Below are positions 12,383 through 46,277 of a stretch of DNA of 64,000 nucleotides, piece after piece; position 1 is the first letter of the stretch, and each line of letters starts with the position of its first letter. The position numbers and the translations under genes are program-made. Origin of the DNA: Syncephalis fuscata (Eukaryota > Zoopagomycota > Zoopagomycetes > Zoopagales > Piptocephalidaceae); NCBI GenBank assembly GCA_025786725.1, contig JAHLTZ010000053.1:1-64000 (forward strand), given 5' to 3'. The notes beneath the pieces were generated by a model. That model did not search any database and had not been told where the DNA came from. It saw only the letters and a list, made by a program, of their open reading frames with translations.

Positions 12383-13660
12383 TTTAATAGGCGAAAAATC
12401 CATTTACTCATACTTTTAGTCGTATAAACTTTTAAAACTTACAATAGCCATCCACTTACTTGACTATTTATTCTTCTTATACTAATACAAATAATTCATC
12501 TTGTTTATACTATATTATAACAACAACAACAATGCCATTTATTGACGATAGCCGCGGTGTAAACCGTGAGCGACTGAATCATCTTTCAAAAGAATGGAAT
12601 ATGACTGTTGATTCGCTTGGCAATATACAATTATACGATTTTTACATGCAAGCTACCGGTAATATTCACGAGCAGCGCAATCGATTACTAGGCATTCAAA
12701 TGCAGATGGTGTTGTTATATATAGTGCTGTATGTATCTACACACAACTGTATTACTGCCAGTAGAATGATTATAGCACGACCGTATACAATAGCCGCATG
12801 GTGCTGTTTAATTCCATCTTTTATGGGTTTTCTAGCTGGAACATTTGTTATAATTGCGGCACTAGGCGGTTCAATGGCTTGTCGAGAAATTATACTGATA
12901 AATGTAGCTGGAATGGCCATTGTTAATCCATGTAACAGTTTGGTCTTACTTCAAAAAACATATTTAATACTATCACGTCCAAAATGGATTATATACATTG
13001 GTACTCCGCTTATACTAGCTCAACTAAGCTTTATAACTGTGCTTTTCTATAGCATATTTACTATCGAAACAAAAGTCGGCTGCGTAGATTATCATCCAAA
13101 GCTGTTTTTATGGTATTGGTTTTCTGTTTCTATGCCTGGTAACATACTGTTTTCTGTCCTTTTTAGTCGGATTGCACTAAAGCAATATCGGATGTTTGGC
13201 TCAGACATGTGGAAGCGATTAGCCCGTGATGGTTTACAAATAATGTCCATGACTGTGCTGTGCAATACTATATGCTGTGTGGCCGTTGTGTCTCGAATCG
13301 GAGGAGATAATGCTGATCTATTCTTTATTGTCGATTGGTAAGGGGTGGTAATATATAATATTGCGTAAACTAATTGGTCAATATATAGGGTGGTTATTGC
13401 TACGCTACTGGCCAAACACTGTAAAATAATGCGCAAAACTAGGGGTGAATCAACCCGACCCAAGACCAAATATATGCTTGGTGTATCACAAATTACTACT
13501 GCAGCGCCAACGGCAGAAAATGATAGCTTGAAATATAAAATATAGGCCGCTTTTATATATCGTAAAAATTACAATTAAGTTAATAAATTGTAAATATCAT
13601 TATATATGCGTAAAAGGTTATATAAGCTTGTTATTTTTGATTTTTTAAAAAACTACTCAT
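12383..13660. repeat. inverted repeat, left arm (1,278 bp)
   Basis: By eye this arm is identical to the reverse complement of 16468-17745. It spans the promoter, both exons, the intron and the 3' flank of 7TM gene A. Outside the arms identity stops abruptly at about 12382 and decays after 13660. The ~2.8-kb spacer contains 7TM copy B. Confidence 0.85.
12532..13545 (+). CDS. seven-transmembrane receptor-like protein A
   Basis: There are two exons, 12532-13337 and 13389-13545, joined in phase 2 through a GTAAGG...TATATAG intron; the product is 320 aa. The start at MPFIDDS follows an A/C-rich leader and is conserved in all four copies. About seven hydrophobic segments are visible: roughly residues 62-85, 92-115, 125-150, 158-180, 195-220, 240-262, and the last completed by exon 2 (VVIATLLAKH). 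A basic, Thr-rich cytoplasmic tail follows. The length and topology are those of a small G-protein-coupled-receptor-like protein, but I cannot assign it to a named class. The gene is identical to copy C at 16589-17596. The 7TM-RGS protein at 25.4-27.3 kb is a possible pathway partner by inference only. Confidence 0.75.
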
Positions 13661-16467: not shown

Positions 16468-17745
16468 ATGAGTAGTTTTTTAAAAAATCAAAAATAACAA
16501 GCTTATATAACCTTTTACGCATATATAATGATATTTACAATTTATTAACTTAATTGTAATTTTTACGATATATAAAAGCGGCCTATATTTTATATTTCAA
16601 GCTATCATTTTCTGCCGTTGGCGCTGCAGTAGTAATTTGTGATACACCAAGCATATATTTGGTCTTGGGTCGGGTTGATTCACCCCTAGTTTTGCGCATT
16701 ATTTTACAGTGTTTGGCCAGTAGCGTAGCAATAACCACCCTATATATTGACCAATTAGTTTACGCAATATTATATATTACCACCCCTTACCAATCGACAA
16801 TAAAGAATAGATCAGCATTATCTCCTCCGATTCGAGACACAACGGCCACACAGCATATAGTATTGCACAGCACAGTCATGGACATTATTTGTAAACCATC
16901 ACGGGCTAATCGCTTCCACATGTCTGAGCCAAACATCCGATATTGCTTTAGTGCAATCCGACTAAAAAGGACAGAAAACAGTATGTTACCAGGCATAGAA
17001 ACAGAAAACCAATACCATAAAAACAGCTTTGGATGATAATCTACGCAGCCGACTTTTGTTTCGATAGTAAATATGCTATAGAAAAGCACAGTTATAAAGC
17101 TTAGTTGAGCTAGTATAAGCGGAGTACCAATGTATATAATCCATTTTGGACGTGATAGTATTAAATATGTTTTTTGAAGTAAGACCAAACTGTTACATGG
17201 ATTAACAATGGCCATTCCAGCTACATTTATCAGTATAATTTCTCGACAAGCCATTGAACCGCCTAGTGCCGCAATTATAACAAATGTTCCAGCTAGAAAA
17301 CCCATAAAAGATGGAATTAAACAGCACCATGCGGCTATTGTATACGGTCGTGCTATAATCATTCTACTGGCAGTAATACAGTTGTGTGTAGATACATACA
17401 GCACTATATATAACAACACCATCTGCATTTGAATGCCTAGTAATCGATTGCGCTGCTCGTGAATATTACCGGTAGCTTGCATGTAAAAATCGTATAATTG
17501 TATATTGCCAAGCGAATCAACAGTCATATTCCATTCTTTTGAAAGATGATTCAGTCGCTCACGGTTTACACCGCGGCTATCGTCAATAAATGGCATTGTT
17601 GTTGTTGTTATAATATAGTATAAACAAGATGAATTATTTGTATTAGTATAAGAAGAATAAATAGTCAAGTAAGTGGATGGCTATTGTAAGTTTTAAAAGT
17701 TTATACGACTAAAAGTATGAGTAAATGGATTTTTCGCCTATTAAA
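16468..17745. repeat. inverted repeat, right arm (1,278 bp)
   Basis: This is the reverse complement of 12383-13660 and contains 7TM gene C. The flank beyond 17745 matches the upstream flank of copy B (to about 17809) rather than that of copy A. Confidence 0.85.
16583..17596 (-). CDS. seven-transmembrane receptor-like protein C (identical to A)
   Basis: The minus-strand start is the MPFIDDS codon at 17596; exon 1 ends at 16791 and exon 2 runs from 16739 to 16583. The 320-residue product is identical to copy A, including the intron sequence, because the gene lies in the other arm of the perfect inverted repeat. Upstream it shares its promoter with copy B. With A and C identical and D about two-thirds identical, the cluster mixes an old duplication (D) with very recent copying or conversion (A, B, C). 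Confidence 0.75.
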
Positions 17746-17809: not shown

Positions 17810-18741
17810 TGAAATTTCGAATACGCTAATTGGATAATAAGTTTATGGGTACTATTGCTATGCGATATGTTCTATGAATTATAAAGCTTGTATTTATTGC
17901 AGACTACACGGCAAAACATAGGTGAGTTAAATTATTTTGATTTGTTAGCCATATAATAAAGATTGGCATTATAGCAAATGAATAGAATTATGTAATGTAC
18001 TAAAACTATATCATATATTGTTAAGATTATCAGTTAGGCAATAGGTTGTAAATACTTGTGATAATGCTTAATTTTAATGCTGAATGTACAAGACATATTG
18101 TATAATTGTTGCATCACATTTAGTATCTTTCCAAACGTGTGCAGAATGATAAATTCAGGTTACTAGTAAATTGAAATCAAAATGTGTGCAGATATTATTG
18201 AATTTATTTATAAAATTTTAAAACGTGAAATAGTTTATATTATTCTTTTGTACAATTAATGTTGGTATCAAGTGTTTTTACATGCATTTGTAGTCCGTTG
18301 CTTAGCTGATGGTTTTAACAATATATAATATGCTTTTTAATACATTATACATTTCTCGTCATTTTGCTATAATGCTGATCTTTATTTTATAGCCAACAAA
18401 TCAAAAATAGCTAATTCGCCTTTGTTTGCCTTGTATTATGCAACAAATACAGGTTTACTGAGGATAGATCATGTCGCGTGACAGTAGTACACGCATGTTT
18501 ATTGGCCAATTAGCCCACTCAAAACTTGTATAGACTAGCATTGAAATGCCAGCATAACATACATTTACTGCAATATATACCATGGCATCGGCTTCTAATA
18601 GGCGAAAACCCATTTACTTATTTTTCTTAGTCGTATATAATCTTAAACTTGCAATATTTATCCAACCTCTTAATCTTTTATTATTCCTATTATTATCCAA
18701 ATAAGATATCTTGTTTATAATATATAAAATCAACAACAACA
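17810..18741. other. intergenic between 7TM copies C and D
   Basis: No gene is seen. Around 18598-18720 the sequence resembles the immediate upstream region of the other copies (TAATAGGCGAAA...CCATTTACT, then an A/C-rich leader), so this part is the conserved promoter block. Confidence 0.45.
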
Positions 18742-19755
18742 ATGCCATTTACTGATGATAGTGAAGGTTTAAACCTCAAGCGACTGCATAGTATTGCAAA
18801 AGAATGGAATACAACTATTGATTCGCTTGGTACTATACCATTATACGATTTTTACATGAAAGTTACTGATGATATCCATGAACAACGCGATCGATTATCG
18901 GCTACTCAAATGCAAATAGTATTGTCAACTGCAGTAATGTATGTATCTATACACAACTGCATTACTGCCGGCAGAATGATCATAGCACGACCAAATACAT
19001 TAGCTGCATGGTGCTGTTTGATTCCATCTTTTGTAGGCATTTTATCTGCGATATTCGTTGCAAATGAGATGTTAGGCGGTTCAGCGACTTGTCGAGACAC
19101 CCTGGTGGTAGCTTTGGTTGGAATGGTCCTTGTTAATCCATGTAACAGCTTGGTTTTACTTCAAAAAACATACTTAATACTTTCACGTCCAAAATGGATT
19201 ATATGCATTGGCATTCCAATTATACTAGTCCAACTAAGCTACATAAGTGCGCTTTTCTATAGTATATTTACTTACGAGCCAAAATTCGGCTGCATAGATT
19301 ATTATCCAAAAATATTTATATGGTATTGGTTTTCTATTTCTATGCCTGGTAACATACTGTTTTCGATCCTTTTTAGTCGGATTGCACTAAAACAATACAG
19401 GCTTTTTGGATCGGACATGTGGAAACGATTGGCACGCGATGGTTTACAAATAATGTCCATGACTGTGCTGTGCAATACAATATGCTCTGCGGTCATTGCG
19501 TTCCGAATTGGAGAAAACAATTCTGAACTATTCTTTACTGTAGACTGGTAAGAAATGCTACTATATGCTGCTAAATACACTAACTTATGAGTTTATAGGA
19601 TAGTTGTTGCTACATTATTAGCCAAACATTGTGAAATAATGCGCAGAACTGGGGGCGAATCAAACCGGCCCAGGACCGAATATATGTTTGGTGTATCACA
19701 GATCGCAACCGTGGCTTTAGTACCAGAAAATGATAGTTTGGGATATAAAATATAA
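18742..19755 (+). CDS. seven-transmembrane receptor-like protein D (diverged paralogue)
   Basis: Exons are 18742-19547 and 19599-19755, with the same 320-aa length and intron phase as copies A-C. The protein keeps the NPCNSLVLLQKTYLILSRP and LQIMSMTVLCNT blocks, but differs widely in transmembrane segments 1-3 and in the loops. The C-terminal tail again ends in a short Lys-rich motif. As the diverged member with an intact frame, it shows the family is under purifying selection and is not just a repeated fragment. Confidence 0.75.
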
Positions 19756-41975: not shown

Positions 41976-41983
41976 TATAAATA
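41976..41983 (+). promoter_or_regulatory. TATA box of the microexon gene
   Basis: TATAAATA lies 145 bp before the start codon. It is followed by a C/A/T-rich, G-poor leader (about 41990-42120) ending in CAATATCACC before the ATG. This is the layout of a strongly expressed fungal gene. Confidence 0.65.
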
Positions 41984-42120
41984 GCCCACAAAATATACAC
42001 ATTCAACTAGAATATCATCATCACACTCTACTTTCTGCTAAACACACACTACTCTCCACTTTACACCAGTCACATTCTACTATCTTTCTTATTTGTTTGT
42101 CTTAACAAATCAATATCACC

Positions 42121-44780
42121 ATGAAGCTTTCTATTGCCGTCGTTTGCACCATTGTCGTTGCGCTTGTGGCCGTTACAGCCATGGTGGATGCTAAACCAGC
42201 CTTAGTTCGTCGTGGTGGTATGTTGCAATAACATAAATATGCCATAGTTTTATATTTACTAACAGTATTTCTAAATAATAATTACAATAGATCGTAAGTT
42301 ATATTGTATATTAGCTAATTACTTACTGATTATATACCATGTACTGTGTTTATAAACAACTAAATATCAATAGCTGGTAGGTTGCGTTACATATTAATAG
42401 GGCATACACTAATTATGTGTTATATACTGTATCTATCAACAACTTAATATTAGCTCAATGTAAGTTGTATTGTATATTAATTTATTACTCACTAATTGCA
42501 TGTTATGCGCCATGTGTACCAACAACGTAATACTAATAGGCGGTAAGTAATACTGTATATTAATTGATTATACATTAATTATATACCATGTATTGTGTAT
42601 ATCAACAATTTAATATTAATAGCTGGTAAGTCGTACTGTATATTAACTTACTATGCGCTAATTGTATACCATGCACCGTGTATATCAATAACAATATTAA
42701 TAGCATGTAAGTTGTATTGTATATTAGTTGAGCATTATTTAACTGTATATTGTGTATTATATGTATCAATAACTTGATAATAATAGGCGGTAAGTAGCAA
42801 TATATATTGCTGACTTATAAATTAATTGTGTGTCATGCACTGTGCGTATCAATAATTTGATGGAATAGTTGGCAAGTAACATTACATATTCACTGATTAT
42901 ACACTAATTATATCCATGCATTGCGTGTTTCAATAACTTAATATTAATAGAAAGTAAGTTGTATCGTATATTAGCTAATTACTTACTAATTATACCCATG
43001 TATTGCGTGCATCAACAAATATTAATAGACTGTAAGTAGCATTGTATATTGGTTGACTATGCATTAACTATGCTATTTACTGATTGTATCGATTATTTAA
43101 TATTAATAGGCAGTAAGTGGTATTTTATATTAACTGCCCATATATTAACTGCTATTTATTGATTGTACCAATTGTTTAATATTAATAGAGAGTAAGCAAT
43201 ATTGTATATTAACTGACTATATATTAACTGCTATTTACTAATTGTACCAATTGTTTAATACTAATAGGAAGTAAGTTGTACTGTGTATTAACTGACTATA
43301 CATTAACTATGCTATTTACTAATTGTATCAATTGTTTAATACTAATAGGAAGTAAGTTGTATCGTGTATTAACCGACTATATATTAACTGCTATTTACTG
43401 ATTGTACCAATTGTTTAATATTAATAGCTGGTAAGTAGTATTATATAACAATGAACTATAAATTAATCACATTTTATTGATTGATTGACCGATTATTCAA
43501 TACTAATAGGCTGTAAGTAGTATTATATATTAATTAACCATGCATTAACTAAGCTATTTATTGATAATATTAATTATTTAATATTAATAGTGGGTAAGTA
43601 TTATTGTATTTTAATTAACTATACATTAACTATACTAATTACTAATAATATTAACTATTTAATATTAATAGATTGTAAGTGATATTATATATTAATTGAT
43701 TATTTACCAATCGTATATGATGTACTATGCGCGTCAACAACTCAATATAATAGGGGGTAAGTGATATTGTATATTAATTATGTTATTTACCAACTGTACT
43801 GATTATTTGATACTAATAGGCAGTAAGTAGTATTATATATTAATTAACTATGCATTAAATATGTTATTTACTGATTACACCAACTATTTAATATTAATAG
43901 AATGTAAGTTTTATTGTATATTAGTTAACTATACATTAACTCTGATATTAACTGATTATACCGATTATTTATATTAATAGGTCGTAAGTGGTATTGTGTA
44001 TTAATTAACTATAGATTAACTGATATTTACTGGTTGTACCAAATACTTAATATTAATAGGAAGTAAGTTATATTGCGTACTAGCTAACTATATATTAACT
44101 GCTATTTACTACTTGTACCAATTATTTAATATCAATAGATGGTAAGTGGTATTGTGTAGTAACTAACTATGCATTAACTATTATATTTACTAATTGTGCC
44201 AACTATTTAATATTAATAGGCAGTAAGTAGCACTGTATATTGACTAATTACTCACTAATCACATGCTATTTACTGATTGTACCAATTATTTAATATTAAT
44301 AGGCTGTAAGTGGTATTGTATATTAACTGCCTATATATTAACTGCTATTTATTGACTGTACCAATTATTTAATATTAATAGGCAGTAAGTGGTATTGTGT
44401 AGTAACTGACTATATATTAACTATTATATTTACTGATTGTGCCAATTATTTAATATTAATAGGAAGTAAGTTGTACTGTGTATTAACTGACTATATATTA
44501 ACTTCTATTTACTGATTGTATCAATTGTTTAATATTAATAGCGAGTAAGTTGTATCGTGTATTAACTGACTATATATTAACTGCTATTTACTGATTGTGT
44601 CAATTGTTTAATATTAATAGTTTGTAAGTAATATTCTATATTAATTGACTATAAACTAATCACATGTTATTCACTATATATATCAATAACTTAATAATAA
44701 TAGGCTGTAAGTAGCATTATATATTGATGGCTTATGCATTAATTATATGTCATGTAATATCTTTATTTGTAAATACAGGA
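42121..44780 (+). CDS. secreted six-cysteine peptide precursor built from 31 microexons (30 of 3 nt, one of 6 nt)
   Basis: Exon 1 (42121-42217) encodes an N-terminal signal peptide (hydrophobic core ~residues 4-20), a short propeptide and a VRR dibasic site at residues 29-31. It ends in phase 1 at a GTATGT donor. Then come microexons starting at 42291, 42374, 42454 (6 nt), 42540, 42623, 42704, 42787, 42869, 42951, 43029, 43110, 43189, 43268, 43349, 43428, 43510, 43591, 43672, 43754, 43820, 43901, 43981, 44060, 44139, 44220, 44303, 44382, 44463, 44542, 44621 and 44704. Each sits between an AATAG-type acceptor and a GTAAGT-type donor (GTAGGT at 42377, GTAAGC at 43192, GCAAGT at 42872). The last exon begins at 44779. 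Joined in phase 1 the product is 64 aa, with Cys at 37, 40, 44, 55, 60 and 64 (C-x2-C-x3-C-x10-C-x4-C-x3-C). The stop codon is completed by the first two bases of the last exon. A defensin-like, signalling or effector role is possible; function unknown. Confidence 0.9.
42218..44778 (+). repeat. tandem intron array, ~81-bp period, 32 introns
   Basis: Thirty-two consecutive introns resemble each other: a GTAAGT donor, then TATTGTATATTAA-like and CTATACATTAACT-like blocks, a TACTGATTGTACC-like block and a TTTAATATTAATAG acceptor. Spacing between microexons is 78-83 bp almost throughout; exceptions are 66 bp (43754 to 43820) and 75 bp (last). Similarity is highest in the second half (about 43080-44640). 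The introns are related by descent, while the 3-nt exons between them differ. Confidence 0.9.
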
Positions 44781-46277
44781 TAATCGATGGTCTCAAGACA
44801 TTAGCATTGGTAGTGCAATCAAGCCACTATTCCAATACACTTTAGGTATATATTCGGTGAAAAGCAAGACCATTTGACAATTACGCCGTCCAGTCCACCT
44901 ATATATCAAGTTTTGGCTAATGCTCCGGTTTACCCAGTCTTTAACCAATGGAATCATTATGTTACCAACAAGCTTGCAATCAGTTGTCTCTATTCAACTT
45001 TGCAAGCTTATAGTAATAAACCTATGGTTTCATCTTAACTATATACAATCAAATTGCTATATCTATAACCATGTTTTATTTACATTCGATAATTAACAAC
45101 TATTAATCAAATAGTTAAATTAACAAAATGTATATGATCATATCACCTAAGCTATAGGCATAGATTGGTATGAATAGTAGCAAAGCTATCATTATCATAT
45201 AGCCAAATAATAGTATGCTGAAACTAGAATAAAAACGCTTTTTTAATAGAACATGGCAATAAAGCATAGGATATTATAATACAAAATAAATAGACAAATC
45301 AAATACGTGAATAGTGATAGTGAAACTATACTGTATGCAATTGGCCAAGAGTAATGAACTAAATGAATCAAAATCTGCTAAAAGAATACAGTTAGCAATG
45401 AGCTTTTAGCCTTTGTTAGTATAATTTTTACAATTTACAATATTAATGGTATAGATGGTCATATAGTACAAATACACAGGATAGATATGCACAGTACAAT
45501 AATAATGATAAATAAATAGCTTAATAATCAATGACACTCAACAGCCAGTTTCATTTTCAATAAAGCGGATATTTTGTTTAAATGTGTGGCTATTATAGCT
45601 ATTTAACTGCCAAGTCACATCAAACAACCAATAGTGTGCTTAATATTATCAAAAAAGTTATTTTATTTAGTTAATAAAAATATTATAAGATTCAATACAA
45701 ATCAAGTGGTTTAAATGATCCGTCACAGCACCCTTTTAAGCTTTTTTTGCCATGTTCCATGACTTTTTTAAATTGGAACATTGGAGCGATTACTGCGACA
45801 TTTAAAAGTAGATGTTACGAGTAGATTGTTATAGTTTATCAATGACAAATGCCATGTTGACGGTTTTATTTTGCATATCTTTACTCTTGCTTGATAAACC
45901 AACTAATTAATTTAAGTTGATCAAAGCAATAACACTTTTATGTAATTTATAATTATTTAATTGCTAAATCTGATATTTGAAATGCTCTAAATAAGCCAAT
46001 CTAATCTTATTTGTTGGTTATTTTTTTGCTTGCATTAAAATTTATTTATTTATTTTAATGTTTGTTTCATTAGTTGTTTGTTTTTATTTTTCAATAAAGA
46101 CATTTATTTTAACATTAACTACTATGCCAACATTATTATTCTAATTTTTACAGAGCATGTTTTTTATTGTATTTTTTGAGTTGCATTTGCTACAATTAAC
46201 TAAACTATGTAAATAAACAAAGTTTTAAATTAAAATTCGTTGCATTTATTGTAATTGGCTTTTTCAAATTTTCTCTA
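44781..46277. other. 3' flank of the microexon gene and intergenic DNA
   Basis: The first ~230 bp are probably the 3' untranslated region (AATAAA at about 45013). The rest is AT-rich with no gene recognised. Confidence 0.45.

Follow-up and report, generated by a model that had tools for sequence, protein, structure and literature searches.

One-codon exons in Syncephalis fuscata: a large gene family predicted to encode small secreted peptides

In the first 64,000 nucleotides (nt) of contig JAHLTZ010000053.1 of the zoopagomycete fungus Syncephalis fuscata (assembly GCA_025786725.1), referred to as the window in the following, a leader exon and a terminal exon enclose 31 microexons, nearly all of them one codon long. 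This locus is one member of a large S. fuscata gene family, bigger than first noted. Judging from the genomic sequence, its arrays are very probably spliced coding genes for small secreted peptides, in which a conserved leader exon would be followed by a run of one-codon exons between tandemly repeated introns of about 78 nt, and then by a terminal exon carrying the stop codon or its end. All microexons would be joined in phase 1 in the messenger RNA (mRNA).

The genes were modelled with a dynamic programme over donor and acceptor weight matrices, which is blind to the reading frame and has no preferred exon length; the matrices were derived from strict 3-nt-spacer sites at 21 loci, including the window. 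An earlier note on this DNA had proposed a secreted peptide encoded by 31 microexons, 30 of 3 nt and one of 6 nt, and the programme recovered the same model: a 97-nt exon 1, 31 internal exons (30 of 3 nt and one of 6 nt at 42454-42459) and a terminal exon, separated by 32 introns of 63-80 nt. The AATAG-like acceptors and GTAAGT-like donors said to frame the microexons are equally evident, as AATAG-NNN-GTAAGT occurs 27 times in the window, always inside the array, against 0.05 expected occurrences. The features of the gene are the following, with all microexons taken from the frame-blind model:

41976..41984, + strand: TATA-like box TATAAATAG, about 140 nt 5' of the ATG (by eye)
42121..42217, + strand: exon 1, putative signal peptide and short pro-region, ending ...KPALVRRG in phase 1
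42218..42290, + strand: intron 1, donor GTATGT, conserved start motif
42291..42293, + strand: microexon 2, ATC
42374..42376, + strand: microexon 3, CTG
42454..42459, + strand: microexon 4, CTCAAT, the sole 6-nt one in this gene
42540..42542, + strand: microexon 5, GCG (codon T|GC of the first cysteine, Cys1)
42623..42625, + strand: microexon 6, CTG
42704..42706, + strand: microexon 7, CAT
42787..42789, + strand: microexon 8, GCG (Cys2)
42869..42871, + strand: microexon 9, TTG, followed by a GC donor (GCAAGT)
42951..42953, + strand: microexon 10, AAA
43029..43031, + strand: microexon 11, ACT
43110..43112, + strand: microexon 12, GCA (Cys3)
43189..43191, + strand: microexon 13, AGA
43268..43270, + strand: microexon 14, GAA
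43349..43351, + strand: microexon 15, GAA
43428..43430, + strand: microexon 16, CTG
43510..43512, + strand: microexon 17, GCT
43591..43593, + strand: microexon 18, TGG
43672..43674, + strand: microexon 19, ATT
43754..43756, + strand: microexon 20, GGG
43820..43822, + strand: microexon 21, GCA
43901..43903, + strand: microexon 22, AAT
43981..43983, + strand: microexon 23, GTC (Cys4, TGT)
44060..44062, + strand: microexon 24, GAA
44139..44141, + strand: microexon 25, ATG
44220..44222, + strand: microexon 26, GCA
44303..44305, + strand: microexon 27, GCT
44382..44384, + strand: microexon 28, GCA (Cys5)
44463..44465, + strand: microexon 29, GAA
44542..44544, + strand: microexon 30, CGA
44621..44623, + strand: microexon 31, TTT
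44704..44706, + strand: microexon 32, GCT (Cys6; its final T opens the stop codon T|GA)
44779..45014, + strand: terminal exon 33, final two bases of the stop codon and 3' untranslated region; 3' limit approximate, with AATAAA at 45015 by eye

Spliced in this way, the gene yields a coding sequence of 195 nt for 64 amino acids, MKLSIAVVCTIVVALVAVTAMVDAKPALVRRG-DPAQCAACVENCKRRTGLDWGKCRNGSCRTIC, with the TGA stop codon made at the last junction and six cysteines within 28 residues (C-x2-C-x3-C-x10-C-x4-C-x3-C), just as had been predicted for phase-1 splicing. The N-terminus is hydrophobic and the pro-region contains an RR site (both by eye). Cleavage there would yield a mature peptide of 33 residues that starts with GDPAQC and weighs 3573 Da before its disulfides form. 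Joined straight to the terminal exon, exon 1 would instead run into GGA TAA and end in ...VRRGG and a stop, leaving no mature peptide. In paralogues, a 6-nt exon is common at the ordinal of microexon 4, and the region upstream of the gene can be aligned with the upstream regions of array and intronless paralogues. An Rfam search of the window gave no match.

Since the arrays studied were picked via their leader exon, the sample is one of leader-bearing loci: 38 were of the array type, and 25 of these were solved. The 13 loci without a model are ten 460-base fragments, L044, which is cut by a contig end, L045 and L087; L073 lacks a recognised exon 1. Four of six arrays found later were also solved, but stand outside the counts. 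Under the frame-blind model, the 25 arrays contain 792 internal exons, of which 741 measure 3 nt and 37 measure 6 nt, leaving 14 with other lengths. Most arrays have 24-49 exons of one or sometimes two codons, but there are only 17 in one array and 7 in another that does not close. A first splice model was dropped because of its poor terminal-exon detection; it left 12 of 21 loci without a model, three of them intronless, and made wrong joins elsewhere. A variant that favours certain exon lengths gave plausible results for L046 and L054 and poorer ones for L085, L086 and L049, and we report both variants.

The reading frame of the family emerges from the junctions between these exons. We tested the 771 of 792 junctions whose neighbouring exons have lengths divisible by three and found no phase-1 stop codon among them, whereas shuffling the exons within genes gave 48.0 on average (standard deviation 5.1, minimum 29 in 2000 shuffles). 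The result is the same for 16 non-redundant arrays, with no stop in 486 tested junctions or in all 502, against a permuted mean of 29.0 (minimum 16 in 5000). The third phase contains 78 stops in 771 junctions; the phase in which each exon is itself a codon contains five and is thus also rather open, so that it takes the permutation and homology to fix the frame. Furthermore, cysteine codons are about twice as frequent at the junctions as expected by chance (138 versus 68.4, standard deviation 5.9), and the last base of a microexon depends on the first two bases of the next one, across the intron between them, with 0.265 bits versus 0.044 (standard deviation 0.009). Under the length-favouring model, 17 of the 25 arrays are open through to the terminal exon.

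Evidence for coding is also provided by intronless relatives, in which the leader runs without interruption into the mature peptide and the 3' sequence. We found them at 12 loci (11 different proteins), with further ones detected later. Nine of the 11 proteins share six invariant mature cysteines in one alignment; the framework of L091, C-x2-C-x3-C-x12-C-x4-C-x3-C by eye, resembles that of the window gene. A profile of the 11 mature peptides scores 13.9 bits against the spliced window peptide, compared with 5.6 or nothing for the other phases and at most 6.0 for 20 exon shuffles. The relationship extends beyond the peptide, since all seven intronless loci with upstream sequence align with the upstream region of the window gene (L032 over 154 bases, the other six in two segments over about 1.2 kb). 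On the 3' side, those intronless genes that were inspected, for instance L040 and L064, continue with sequence that starts like an array terminal exon (by eye). The C-terminus ...ANP is common to the arrays L085 and L086 and the intronless L067. The strongest example is provided by array L046, which has 49 microexons: its spliced product ends in CTYSECMEKCKTYC, and the same 14 residues are contiguous in the intronless L078. At the DNA level, 43 of 48 bases are identical in an ungapped block that covers 16 microexons and skips the 15 introns between them, corresponding to 1.2 kb of the array. With a score of 35.5, this block lies above the runner-up among the 23 intronless genes (11.5) and above the maximum reached when exon order was shuffled 1000 times (14.5). 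Four of its five mismatches are synonymous and one exchanges Asp for Glu; the codon straddling the block start differs too. The 49 three-base exons of L046 are those of the length-favouring variant, while the frame-blind model assigns 10 nt to two of the 49, including the first microexon of the block. Together with the stop-free junctions, this match supports the earlier proposal of a secreted peptide encoded by microexons, as far as genomic data can.

The same leader exon also precedes unlike mature parts, among them lysine- and histidine-rich ones and others rich in cysteine (public proteins P0128, P0130 and P0132; loci L089, L092, L101 and L102), and is thus reused beyond the six-cysteine family.

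Between recent duplicates, exon 1 and the splice sites are held while intron interiors diverge. In five recent pairs, 16 of 2486 splice-site positions have changed, compared with 291 of 10493 in intron interiors, an approximately fourfold lower divergence (P about 1e-12), and exon 1 differs at four of 485 bases (P 0.006 versus intron interiors). As the microexon bases change about as fast as the introns in these pairs (see below), variable codons sit inside a conserved splicing frame. In nine pairs filtered for near-identical flanks, the microexons diverge more than the introns (17 of 498 versus 298 of 20546, P 0.002), but we do not claim positive selection, because some matched units are non-orthologous and the window gene is used twice in this set. 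Likewise, the large divergence excesses between the window gene and L043, L051 and L059, and L058 and L059 stem partly from the alignment of different units.

The size of the family can be gauged from its 3-nt spacer. AATAG-NNN-GTAAGT occurs 3,183 times in the 28.95-Mb genome, compared with 28 times for a reversed-pattern control, while spacers of 2 and 4 nt stay at their control levels (59 versus 58 and 54 versus 50) and a 6-nt spacer gives 38 versus 19. Among the matches listed, isolated single ones also occur elsewhere in the genome. Exon 1 has at least 150 matches in its own genome (150 of 330 candidates were scored), and the consensus of the start of intron 1 has 103 sites at no more than three mismatches, against one for the control, although not every site need lead into an array. 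Since the strict pattern fits 580 of the 741 three-base exons in the solved arrays, which average 29.6 such exons, we expect the genome to hold up to about 4,000 of them in about 140 arrays. Intron length, by contrast, varies (57-110 nt, plus three introns of 155-159 nt and five of 494-890 nt), and a spacer fixed at 3 nt amid introns of variable length is what a reading frame demands.

As each unit of intron and codon is in phase, units can be gained, lost or exchanged such that the peptide changes by whole codons and without a frameshift, and the arrays bear traces of such turnover. Leaving out recent duplicates and introns whose best match is in their own gene, we find the best relative of an intron at the same ordinal of another gene for 80% of 96 introns among the first four, for 10% of 150 among introns 11-20, and for 53% of 83 among the last four, counted from the 3' end. 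The middle of the arrays is thus reshuffled between paralogues, whereas both ends stay largely collinear. For 223 of 809 introns, the best match lies within their own gene. In the window gene, introns 2-13 are closest to introns of the same ordinal in L043, with later ones shifted or out of order, and introns 12, 14 and 15 match its own introns 27, 29 and 30 at 92-96%. Related arrays differ by whole units: L047 and L048 have 35 and 32 internal exons, L060 and L061 differ by one unit, and L051 and L059 differ, among other changes, by a four-unit run between near-identical introns. It is suggestive only, but codon changes appear to coincide with swapped units: in four pairs, the median flank identity is 0.887 at 10 changed and 0.973 at 123 unchanged positions (P 0.0016).

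A number of results weigh against the coding interpretation, or at least against its extension to every array. Microexon bases in the five recent pairs diverge at about the intron rate (17 of 512 versus 291 of 10493, P 0.41), so that the codons show no sign of purifying selection in this comparison. Once all 792 junctions are considered, there is one stop codon, among the 21 junctions beside odd-length exons. In the profile test, 12 of the 25 arrays beat all 20 of their own shuffles and 13 did not, and a preset six-cysteine pattern matched nine of 25 (0.01 expected), which implies that the cysteine framework varies. Eight of the 25 do not close under the length-favouring model; as each of them carries at least one exon that would break the frame, its length not being divisible by three, they are either pseudogenes or mis-modelled, and the frame-blind model does close L085 and L086. 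Within the window gene alone, the frame in which each microexon is a codon is open as well. The earlier assertion that the coherence of the gene cannot be accidental is hence too strong for the single gene, and the proof comes from the family. Lastly, no spliced array product was recognised among 13 public S. fuscata proteins (best score 49), which may reflect misannotation or non-use.

These proteins came from protein searches that returned only S. fuscata hypothetical proteins, four matches in one search and 13 in another with a profile of the intronless family, and that required shared five-residue words, such that distant relatives may escape. All 13 were compared with spliced products, intronless open reading frames (ORFs) and translated array introns. 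P0121, P0125, P0128, P0129, P0130 and P0132 correspond to contiguous ORFs, P0126 is encoded without interruption in the genome, and P0127, P0131 and P0133 have no good match in any of the three sets. For P0122, P0123 and P0124, the best match is translated array-intron sequence (scores 105, 71 and 88), and the public proteome is therefore probably wrong for this family. A structural model of the intronless P0126 from a three-row alignment is a helical hairpin (mean predicted local distance difference test score, pLDDT, 63.6), and a PDB search with it gave no hit at an E-value of 0.001 or better (best 2.0); neither was used.

How could such a gene be expressed? We envisage that the introns are removed stepwise, with each junction regenerating the next donor, a form of recursive splicing that would leave one codon behind per step. 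As acceptor and donor are only 3 nt apart, the flanking introns are probably not assembled together, which argues for stepwise removal, and introns near 78 nt suit intron definition. The resulting prepropeptide would then enter the secretory pathway, be cleaved after the RR of its pro-region and fold via disulfides, as its hydrophobic leader, its RR site and its cysteines suggest. The intronless paralogues, in turn, are most likely spliced messages that were reverse-transcribed and recombined. As to biological role, it seems most likely that the peptides, whether as variable effectors or in defence, are directed against fungal hosts or competitors. One report calls Syncephalis species mycoparasitic (PMC8481835), and this lifestyle, the size of the family and its variability make us lean slightly towards a role against fungi, the least certain step of our proposal. 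It is also conceivable, albeit more tentatively, that the arrays act as a generator of diversity at codon resolution, with codons as mobile in-phase modules that recombine via near-identical introns and with optional skipping at the RNA level adding isoforms.

Given the repetitive nature of the arrays, one might suspect a non-coding minisatellite of duplicated introns, in which exon 1 is spliced directly to the terminal exon, with the AG-NNN-GT sites as remnants of tandem duplication. The units are indeed tandem repeats, and the immediate stop after exon 1 would allow for a short product, but this account is highly improbable: it predicts neither the absence of stops from 771 phase-1 junctions nor an intronless paralogue that holds 16 spliced microexons contiguously, and it does not explain why splice sites are kept while intron interiors diverge, or why the spacer is constant at 3 nt amid introns of variable length. 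Alternatively, the family might once have been coding, with most arrays now decaying and the intronless genes as the working form. Odd-length microexons or inserts in arrays such as L043, L053, L059 and L062 would fit this, as would the recurrence of intronless forms on a tree of leader and 3' sequence (29 array and 16 intronless rows, 207 columns, 10 of 40 inner branches starred), where about nine changes of form are needed and at least two are forced by starred branches. Still, we regard general decay as improbable, as exon 1 and the splice sites are constrained between recent duplicates, the non-redundant arrays lack junction stops, 17 of 25 arrays are open to the end, and the window gene is intact.

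The interspersion of both forms on this tree could also mean that intronless genes are ancestral and that arrays arose through repeated intron gain at every codon, for example from an introner-like element, in line with the resemblance of the introns to each other. This, however, would take some thirty insertions, each after the first base of consecutive codons, which is implausible, whereas tandem duplication accounts for both phase and spacing, and the loss of all introns via complementary DNA (cDNA) is a single event. For a plant gene that contains a 1-nt exon, such a loss was inferred to have produced the intronless copies (PMC8831610). Although the direction is not proven, intron gain thus seems an unlikely origin. 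Finally, the arrays might mainly serve alternative splicing, with microexon skipping yielding many in-frame peptides per gene, as proposed for schistosome micro-exon genes. All 3-nt units are in phase, and even shuffled junctions give stops at only about 6% (48 of 771). The full-inclusion product, on the other hand, fits a six-cysteine peptide in the window gene and in other arrays, which argues for one main isoform, and makes skipping rather doubtful as the main purpose. It is nevertheless compatible with our preferred explanation, spliced coding genes for small secreted peptides, and the two do not exclude each other.

Several further observations concern the surroundings of these genes. A repeat of about 415 bp, 81-99% similar to its copy in intron 6 of L039, is found in or near array introns at L045, L049, L059, L085, L031 and L036 as well as near the intronless L057. 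The L039 copy has an ATTTT-rich end and lies between repeats of some 15 bp of intron sequence, reminiscent of a retroposon. A tRNA-like promoter had been suspected by eye, but ARAGORN found no transfer RNA (tRNA) in four loci with the element. The source of this repeat could supply the reverse transcription for intronless copies. Some leader exons are paired tens of kilobases apart in inverted or direct orientation (C1:475325/534304, C1:576389/609265 and C2:225326/244718), several of them near contig ends, which points to recent duplication and perhaps to subtelomeric placement or to assembly breaks at repeats. A WD40 protein encoded in the window is 100% identical, over 97% of its length, to one named from S. 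fuscata, a member of the Piptocephalidaceae. Also in the window, the ORFs at 12448-13341, 16787-17680 and 18721-19551 comprise two identical-looking opposed copies of a membrane protein and a diverged third (by eye), a recent inverted duplication of a receptor-like gene.

If our reading is correct, exon size is reduced to one codon across a whole gene family, and the spliceosome must remove about 30 tandem introns, 3 nt apart, accurately enough to produce a six-cysteine peptide. The arrays would thus allow stepwise splicing and intron definition to be tested in a system that nature provides, and they point to a class of secreted proteins that gene prediction misreads and to evolution through the shuffling of whole codons. 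Should they also generate diversity as outlined above, protein evolution, and possibly expression, would operate with the codon as exon. A mycovirus survey names a virus from S. fuscata (PMC7482067), so RNA data may already exist.

Among known systems, schistosome micro-exon genes (MEGs) are described as having exons of 6-36 bp that make up about 80% of the coding region, mostly secreted products and a presumed role in creating protein variants (PMC5825161). By this description, the S. fuscata arrays resemble them in their many short symmetric exons, and MEGs in turn have mostly secreted products, as we predict here. The arrays are fungal, however, and differ in their single phase, tandem units and cysteine-rich products, and in that 741 of 792 internal exons measure 3 nt and 37 measure 6 nt, the former being below the 6-36-bp range of MEG exons. 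In aphid bicycle genes, exon lengths are in the tens of nucleotides. These insect genes form large, fast-evolving families of putative effectors with about 17 exons on average, many of them small internal exons that nearly all start at codon position 2 (PMC9168663). The phase-1 introns of the arrays likewise place each microexon start at codon position 2, but the window gene has 33 exons, 31 of them of 3 or 6 nt, and the passages on bicycle genes report no repeated one-codon units.

Ratchet points, or zero-nucleotide exons, leave no nucleotides behind, unlike the codon per step proposed here. The stepwise removal is otherwise akin to recursive splicing at such points, which is mentioned in the paper on Arabidopsis APC11 (PMC4674806). 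Isolated exons of 1 nt or 3 nt are spliced in APC11 and in Drosophila homothorax (PMC4674806, PMC7392893); for the 1-nt exon of APC11, simultaneous recognition from both sides was argued to be unlikely, and intron definition with recursive splicing was proposed instead. These microexons, as described, stand singly between other exons, whereas in S. fuscata dozens follow in a row.

On the level of the product, the arrays recall conotoxin precursors, which combine a conserved signal peptide and a basic cleavage site with a variable mature part that has a cysteine framework, although conotoxin genes have few ordinary exons. Rhizophagus SP7, considered as a further parallel, is described as having hydrophilic tandem repeats of protein rather than microexons. 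In the literature on Syncephalis and fungal microexons and on 3-nt or shortest exons, which included few subscription papers or preprints, we did not find this architecture. Isolated 3-nt exons and micro-exon families are both known, but none of the systems compared here dedicates an exon to nearly every mature codon, and the shuffled units suggest a distinct mode of evolution; we therefore consider the S. fuscata arrays categorically new.

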